A stretch of 62,810 nucleotides of DNA. Source: Flavobacteriales bacterium. Lineage in GTDB: Bacteria; Bacteroidota; Bacteroidia; Flavobacteriales; UBA1820. The stretch is taken from NCBI GenBank assembly GCA_017620815.1, contig JAGAUI010000039.1, positions 1 through 62,810 of the forward strand, written 5' to 3'. Position 1 is the first letter of the stretch. Every line of letters starts with the position of its first letter. Position numbers and translations under genes: made by a program. Positions 492-663 of this stretch are shown piece after piece. Under the pieces are notes generated by a model. The model ran no database searches, was not told the origin of the DNA, and was given only the letters and a program-made list of their open reading frames with translations.

Positions 492-599
492 ATGAATAAA
501 ATTATAGGCAGACATATTACTCTTACTTCTACACCTGCTATCACGCTAGGTGGTCTGCTTATATGCACTACTACCCACACTATTACCCCTTGGGGGTAG
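492..599 (+). CDS. Thr/Ile-rich leader peptide (attenuator peptide)
   Basis: A 35-codon frame starting at ATG 492 and ending at TAG 597. It encodes 9 threonines and 6 isoleucines; the last third contains TTTHTITP. This is the composition of thr operon leader peptides (E. coli ThrL is likewise rich in Thr and Ile), and it lies directly before thrB-thrC, so a role in translation-dependent attenuation by threonine (and perhaps isoleucine) is a strong inference. There is no in-frame ATG upstream before a stop at 468, and a good promoter ends only 8 bases before the ATG, so the mRNA would be nearly leaderless. Function rests on composition and position; no homology search was possible. Confidence 0.75.
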   Translation: MNKIIGRHITLTSTPAITLGGLLICTTTHTITPWG

Positions 600-663
600 G
601 GCGTGTATTTTTTCCATTTTTCTACATGTAGTATTGTAGTGTTCTCACAAAGGTCTTTGTGGG
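571..663 (+). promoter_or_regulatory. Candidate attenuator hairpins of the thr operon
   Basis: Three foldable segments follow the threonine codons. First, TTACCCC (583-589) pairs with GGGGTAG (593-599), extended by ACAC/GTGT (577-580/603-606), and is followed by ATTTTTT (607-613), a terminator shape that overlaps the leader stop codon. A competing pairing is CTACCC (571-576) with GGGTAG (594-599). Second, palindrome CTACATGTAG (622-631). Third, CTCACAAA/TTTGTGGG (644-651/656-663) without a T-tract. Which is terminator and which antiterminator cannot be settled by eye. Confidence 0.55.

Follow-up and report, generated by a model that had tools for sequence, protein, structure and literature searches.

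A threonine-rich leader frame upstream of thrB-thrC

The thrB-thrC operon of the window, that is, of the whole 62,810-nt stretch of DNA that was analysed, is preceded by a short threonine-rich reading frame whose last threonine codons form the 5' side of a predicted RNA hairpin (hairpin I) that also takes in the stop codon, and the same arrangement has been detected ahead of threonine genes in many other Bacteroidota. With somewhat better than even confidence we read this leader as a leader-peptide attenuator of thrB-thrC that senses threonine (and isoleucine) and would operate by ribosome occlusion of hairpin I and release at it.

The leader frame (MNKIIGRHITLTSTPAITLGGLLICTTTHTITPWG, followed by the stop codon) occupies positions 492 to 599 of the forward strand, on which all the features described below are located. 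It has 35 codons, nine of them for Thr and six for Ile, and its stop (599) lies 120 nt before the start of thrB at 720, exactly as the original prediction had it. Nine is the largest number of Thr codons in any frame of 12 to 60 codons within 400-719, and none of 2000 dinucleotide shuffles of that region reached it (mean 2.3, maximum 7). Four of the Thr codons come early (codons 10, 12, 14 and 18), and a final cluster, ACT ACT ACC CAC ACT ATT ACC (567-587), runs into the 5' arm of hairpin I.

The frame is kept in both congeners that have thrB, while a fourth member of the genus, with an 81% complete genome, has no thrB. In G002, whose ThrB is 91% identical, the frame has the same length and no indels; 16 codons differ, eight of them synonymously, and the differences are biased to the third position (6, 3 and 12 at first, second and third positions, respectively). 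All the Thr codons but one are retained there, with synonymous changes at Thr codons. The more distant G001 (ThrB 76%) has a longer Thr/Ile-rich frame of 46 codons that ends in ITTTITPLG. The comparison of related loci that had been proposed as a check was thus carried out, and it rendered a Thr-rich frame in the two congeners and in 46 further loci of Bacteroidota (see below). The Thr-rich frame is real.

Transcription would start just ahead of the leader frame. A TTTG element (453-456) is found 19 nt before a box, TATTTTTG (476-483), that matches the consensus TAnnTTTG, and the two correspond to the -33 and -7 elements of the sigma-ABfr type promoter of Bacteroidota (TTTG / TAnnTTTG; PMC7366714). 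The pair is conserved in G002 and, as judged by eye, in G001, and in both the leader ATG follows the TAnnTTTG box by 8 nt. In Flavobacterium the box occupies positions -12 to -5 (PMC9723704), a register that would place the start near 488, with the leader AUG at about +5 and a 5' untranslated region of about 4 nt; all transcript starts given here are inferred from motifs rather than mapped. The box is 3-6 nt from the leader AUG in the Alistipes loci and 4-6 nt from it in most of those of Flavobacterium, and many other Flavobacteriaceae have a distance of 16-23 nt, so that in most loci the leader frame is predicted to begin at, or no more than 20 nt from, the transcript start. In four Lutibacter loci (L085, L091, L104 and L105) the AUG stands exactly 4 nt past the box, and their leader-peptide mRNAs are predicted to be truly leaderless.

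Hairpin I and its conservation

Folding places hairpin I at 560-607. Its core pairs ACCCC (585-589) with GGGGG (592-596), and the leader stop codon, TAG (597-599), lies within its 3' side. Around the core two larger stems compete, one that joins 560-566 to 601-607 (-17 kcal/mol, z -2.1) and another that joins about 578-582 to 601-605. The energy of -17 kcal/mol applies to 560-625, and the region 492-640 as a whole is more stable than its shuffles (z -2.6). A terminator-like hairpin overlapping the end of the leader had been proposed at 577-613 with a run of seven T; the overlap stands, but the run is of six (608-613) and the stem can begin at 560. An early hairpin, GCAGAC (508-513) with GTCTGC (553-558), is kept in G002, and in G001 a hairpin of other sequence occupies the same place.

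The core of hairpin I is present in all 49 Thr-rich leaders compared, as ACCC(C) or a near form, a loop of 3-6 nt, and GGG(G) where the stop codon is. Counted from the end of the core, the first base of this codon is found anywhere from 7 nt ahead to 5 nt beyond, and in six leaders the stop is inside the loop; the core thus overlaps or abuts it throughout, except in L047, where the frame read to its first stop runs past the hairpin. Core and Thr frame are in phase in 48 of the 49, and in 48 the Thr codon in the core is ACC, a codon that makes up only 21% of the Thr codons upstream. Moreover, counted from the core, the frequency of Thr is 39-100% at codons 0 to -6 and about 30% from -7 to -10, and it falls almost to the background level beyond about -12. 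The C-terminus of the peptide, on the other hand, varies (TPWG, TPFGV, TLWGC, TLRG, TPSRG, or TL followed by the stop) while the hairpin is constant, which indicates that it is the RNA hairpin that is kept. As judged from these alignments, the regulatory Thr codons are the 5' side of hairpin I. A peptide-level arrest of the TnaC type, considered for the conserved look of the C-terminus, was set aside, since hairpin nucleotides rather than residues are maintained.

The nucleotides just past hairpin I are 80% A/T. In the window the tail is TTTTTTCC (608-615), with a CC 17 nt past the core, and a CC is found 14-20 nt past the core in 39 of the 49 loci, for 7.1 expected. A fixed distance of this kind is to be expected if hairpin I acts on RNA polymerase, and its constancy suggests such an action, be it pausing or termination. 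In most species the stem is followed by a modest number of U (mean 3.8 of 9; the window, with 7 of 9, has the highest), so that hairpin I is not a canonical terminator everywhere. A loose terminator scan gave hits at the leader end in 14 of the 49 loci (2.5 expected) and between hairpin I and the gene in three (0.6 expected), with no recurrent intrinsic terminator downstream of hairpin I among the 49, and no separate U-tract terminator was found past the stop of the thr leader of this genome. By these scans no terminator candidate other than hairpin I recurs, and it has a canonical form in the window but a poor one in many relatives.

A second hairpin, CACAAAGGTCTTTGTG (646-661), with a conserved A-G-G loop, lies between the leader and thrB. 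The search for covarying hairpins that the original prediction had called for found its stem to covary in 11 Bacteroidales-type loci including the window, with two-sided changes in all six pairs and a covariation score above those of all 500 shuffles and all slid controls, figures that related sequences can inflate and that come from the same alignment on which the helix was chosen.

Distribution in Bacteroidota

A survey of 80 named Bacteroidota thr loci, found with an alignment query, rendered 46 in which the first thr gene is preceded by a Thr-rich frame with this terminal hairpin, mainly from Bacteroidales, Flavobacteriaceae and Cytophagales; these, the window and the two congeners constitute the 49 leaders. 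The gene behind the leader is thrB in Rikenellaceae-like genomes, and thrA in Flavobacteriaceae, Cytophagales and Marinilabiliales. The distance from the leader stop to the gene varies from about 60 to 240 nt, and the adjacency of thrB and thrC is conserved in most loci. No Thr-rich leader was found in several Bacteroidaceae-like loci (e.g., L031, L034 and L048-L050), Hymenobacter or Olivibacter (for some of these no usable sequence upstream of the genes was available), and a class-wide sample of 396 genomes contained no nearer ThrB relatives.

In a tree of ThrB the genus of the window nests inside a Bacteroidales (Rikenellaceae-like) clade with support 100/100, and its leader resembles the Bacteroidales form. 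The genomes assigned by GTDB to the same order, which include Flavobacteriaceae-like and very small (0.3-0.6 Mb) ones, fall with Flavobacteriaceae. The lineage of the source genome is uncertain, and the tree would be compatible with a transfer of leader and thrBC or with an odd classification.

Ribosome position and the mode of control

The possible effects of a translating ribosome were modelled by folding the RNA left free downstream of it, with 12 nt covered from the first base of the A site. In the window and in G002 the outer stem of hairpin I is lost once the A site has arrived at codons 26-28 (ACT ACT ACC), and the core holds up to codon 29; in G001 the outer stem and then the core are lost likewise in the final Thr cluster of that leader. 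A ribosome on any of the last eight codons or on the stop would block hairpin I, while one stalled at Thr codons 10, 12, 14 or 18 leaves it free. Equilibrium folding is a weak test, which did not reproduce antitermination in the ilv leader of the same genome, and it bears on the geometry only; what is relied upon here is therefore the difference between leaders when a ribosome occupies the stop codon.

These results modify the original prediction in part. A ribosome stalled at 567-575 had been proposed to cover the left arm of the hairpin and thereby to allow read-through; in the folding model a ribosome at these codons (Thr codons 26-28) does remove the outer stem, but the core persists. Given that early-Thr stalls also leave the hairpin free, read-through does not follow simply. 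The reading of the region as a translation-controlled attenuator sensing Thr is, on the other hand, well supported by the conserved frame, the enrichment in Thr beside the hairpin and the promoter just upstream, and the suspicion that its logic may differ from that of the classical thr operon has been borne out, since the stop-overlapping layout is common across Bacteroidota.

The frame and its conservation, the promoter motifs, the hairpin, the placement of the Thr codons and the missing separate downstream terminator are observed, and constitute the basis of the attenuator reading. According to the mechanism that we favour, transcription would start about 4 nt ahead of the leader AUG, and the ribosome would trail RNA polymerase into the block of Thr/Ile codons that itself makes up the 5' arm of hairpin I. 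Near 608-615, in the A/U-rich tail that follows hairpin I, the polymerase would pause or terminate. When charged tRNA-Thr is scarce, the ribosome would linger in the Thr cluster and hold hairpin I open, so that the polymerase could escape into thrBC; when Thr is plentiful, it would reach the stop within the hairpin and be released, upon which hairpin I would close and transcription would stop.

The sign of the response is the delicate point. In Escherichia coli, terminators located a few bp from a stop codon are repressed by the following ribosomes, and slow translation raises termination (PMC4824070). A plain terminator at hairpin I would therefore be blocked by fast translation, when Thr is ample, and permitted by slow translation, which is the wrong sign for a biosynthetic operon. 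Two ways round this problem can be envisaged, namely a polymerase pause combined with ribosome release, to which we give a little over half of our belief, or a hairpin I that favours expression. The occlusion-release model would need a pause, hypothetical at present, long enough for the ribosome to be released. Extended to the phylum, it would define a class of threonine attenuators whose regulatory codons make up one arm of the sole decision hairpin, with the stop inside, and in which ribosome occupancy or release, not alternative helices, decides; we propose this class tentatively, our confidence in it falling somewhat short of even.

Alternative helices would be decisive in a classical three-helix attenuator, with a 1:2 pairing (508-513/553-558), a 2:3 antiterminator (GGTGGT at 549-554 with ACTACC at 570-575) and a 3:4 terminator (560-607 plus T6), in which a stall at an early Thr codon would free arm 2 for arm 3 and lead to read-through. 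All three pairings are possible in the window, early Thr codons are present (10, 12, 14 and 18), and in the folding model, with ribosomes at codons 3-16, the combination of 2:3 and the short core is preferred to the 560-607 stem. However, G002 and G001 have the 2:3 pairing weakly or not at all, and inspection by eye found no antiterminator conserved in other loci, nor a long-range pairing of the early leader with the segment past the stop (e.g., CGGAC/GTCCG in Arenibacter) shared across groups; furthermore, with a ribosome at the leader stop 3:4 is blocked, while the terminators of the his and ilv leaders in this genome stay formed. We regard this arrangement as unlikely, although the non-conserved GGTGGT/ACTACC pairing could contribute in the window itself.

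It is also improbable, to much the same degree, that the logic is inverse, with hairpin I as a pause or antitermination element that would form when the ribosome lags at low Thr and would favour expression, whereas fast ribosomes would prevent it and transcription would then end otherwise, for instance through Rho. The folding results fit the sign of such a response, since hairpin I forms with the ribosome upstream and is blocked at the last eight codons and the stop; the weak U tails of many species and the conserved distance from hairpin to CC, as in a hairpin-dependent pause, are in agreement with it too. The window, on the contrary, has T6 after the stem, and no recurrent downstream terminator appeared in the scans, which covered the intrinsic type. 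An action after transcription, on translation of thrB or decay of the mRNA via hairpin I and the conserved hairpin II rather than through termination, could account for the covariation of hairpin II in Bacteroidales-type loci; the variable distance from stop to gene argues against direct occlusion of the start region and the hairpin-CC spacing points to the polymerase, so that we consider it very improbable. That a functionless Thr-rich frame lies by chance beside an ordinary hairpin, for which only the short length of the frame would speak, is hardly credible in view of the shuffles and is refuted by the conservation in both congeners with thrB and in 46 further loci.

Comparison with known attenuators

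The thr leader shares with the E. coli thr operon attenuator (thrL; RF00506) a Thr/Ile-rich leader peptide before threonine genes and, presumably, the sensing of Thr and Ile and a hairpin decision before the first gene. They differ in that the thrL stop lies 24 nt before a strong T9 terminator, whereas in the window the stop is inside the hairpin, and in that thrA does not belong to the operon of the window. A search with Rfam at gathering and relaxed thresholds gave no leader family at the thr locus, RF00506 included; over eight genomes this model had only sub-threshold matches elsewhere, and the three inspected were ordinary terminator-like hairpins. The Bacteroid-trp RNA (RF01692) is likewise a leader-peptide element of Bacteroidota with a TAnnTTTG promoter near the frame, but its frame has Trp codons and its leader stop is followed, at a good distance, by a strong U-tract terminator (GC-rich in the elements of relatives), unlike in the thr leader, and its covariance model had no match at the thr locus.

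Leaders of the classical type are present in the same genome, a His-rich one before hisG (MKNILLHHTHHIYIIATTAK, ending at a stop; L157, contig C10) and a Leu/Ile/Val-rich one before ilvD (MNLIIDTLLITVLLLLVVPVVR, also ending at a stop; L167, contig C25). As in the thr leader, these are amino-acid-rich short frames before biosynthetic genes, but they have a GC-rich U-tract terminator about 30-45 nt past the stop, which the thr leader lacks, and in the ribosome model their terminators still form with a ribosome on the stop codon, in contrast to hairpin I. In amino-acid attenuators the terminator stands more than 20 bp beyond the leader stop, a spacing that spares it from repression by the ribosome completing the leader (PMC4824070). 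The thr leader departs from this rule, with the stop in the hairpin in the window and overlapping or abutting it in nearly all 49 loci. A closer parallel in this respect is the E. coli pyrBI attenuator, where a terminator-like hairpin lies within the leader frame and the position of the ribosome acts directly (PMC4824070); pyrBI, however, senses UTP through the speed of the polymerase, while in the thr leader the Thr codons form an arm of the hairpin. The thr leader is probably a threonine sensor that uses an unusual version of a known mechanism.

Attenuators of the leader-peptide type have reportedly been predicted in Bacteroidetes/Chlorobi by Vitreschak et al. in 2004. They have also been suggested in Flavobacterium psychrophilum (PMC9723704), and the Bacteroid-trp leader element has been described for the phylum (PMC2864571). 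Leader-peptide attenuation before amino-acid operons of Bacteroidota is thus already suspected, while the stop-overlapping thr hairpin is apparently undescribed: no account of it or of a thr element was found in the papers searched, and priority is uncertain.

In textbook attenuators the terminator is set apart from the leader stop, at a distance that prevents a ribosome completing the leader from blocking it. The thr leader has the opposite layout, conserved from Bacteroidales to Flavobacteriaceae and Cytophagales and present in a genome whose his and ilv leaders are of the textbook kind. Either a single hairpin suffices for attenuation by ribosome release, or hairpin I has a reverse role, and the answer bears on how closely ribosomes trail the polymerase in Bacteroidota. 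Moreover, the motif, which no curated RNA family matched, provides a ready signature to annotate threonine control in many gut and marine bacteria.

The operon and its genomic context

The source genome (G000) amounts to 1.73 Mb in 42 contigs, of which the window is contig C14. The operon consists of thrB (720-1649), named homoserine kinase by homology and conserved motifs, and thrC (1672-2964), named threonine synthase by homology. As had been noted from the letters of the window, thrA is absent from the operon; the only homoserine dehydrogenase of the genome is a fused ThrA encoded on another contig, C4 (L028:1655-5104). Control by the leader would accordingly touch homoserine kinase and threonine synthase only, which agrees with the scope first ascribed to it. 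The fused thrA gene is located directly behind a gene similar to those of homoserine O-acetyltransferases, and its placement suggests that this genome couples the shared aspartate branch to the synthesis of methionine and not to that of threonine. At 195-330, a short way before the promoter, the window contains tandem GC-rich inverted repeats with T runs (similar to GGCTCGCC..GGCGAGCC), which probably serve as terminators for a gene that lies upstream, outside the window.
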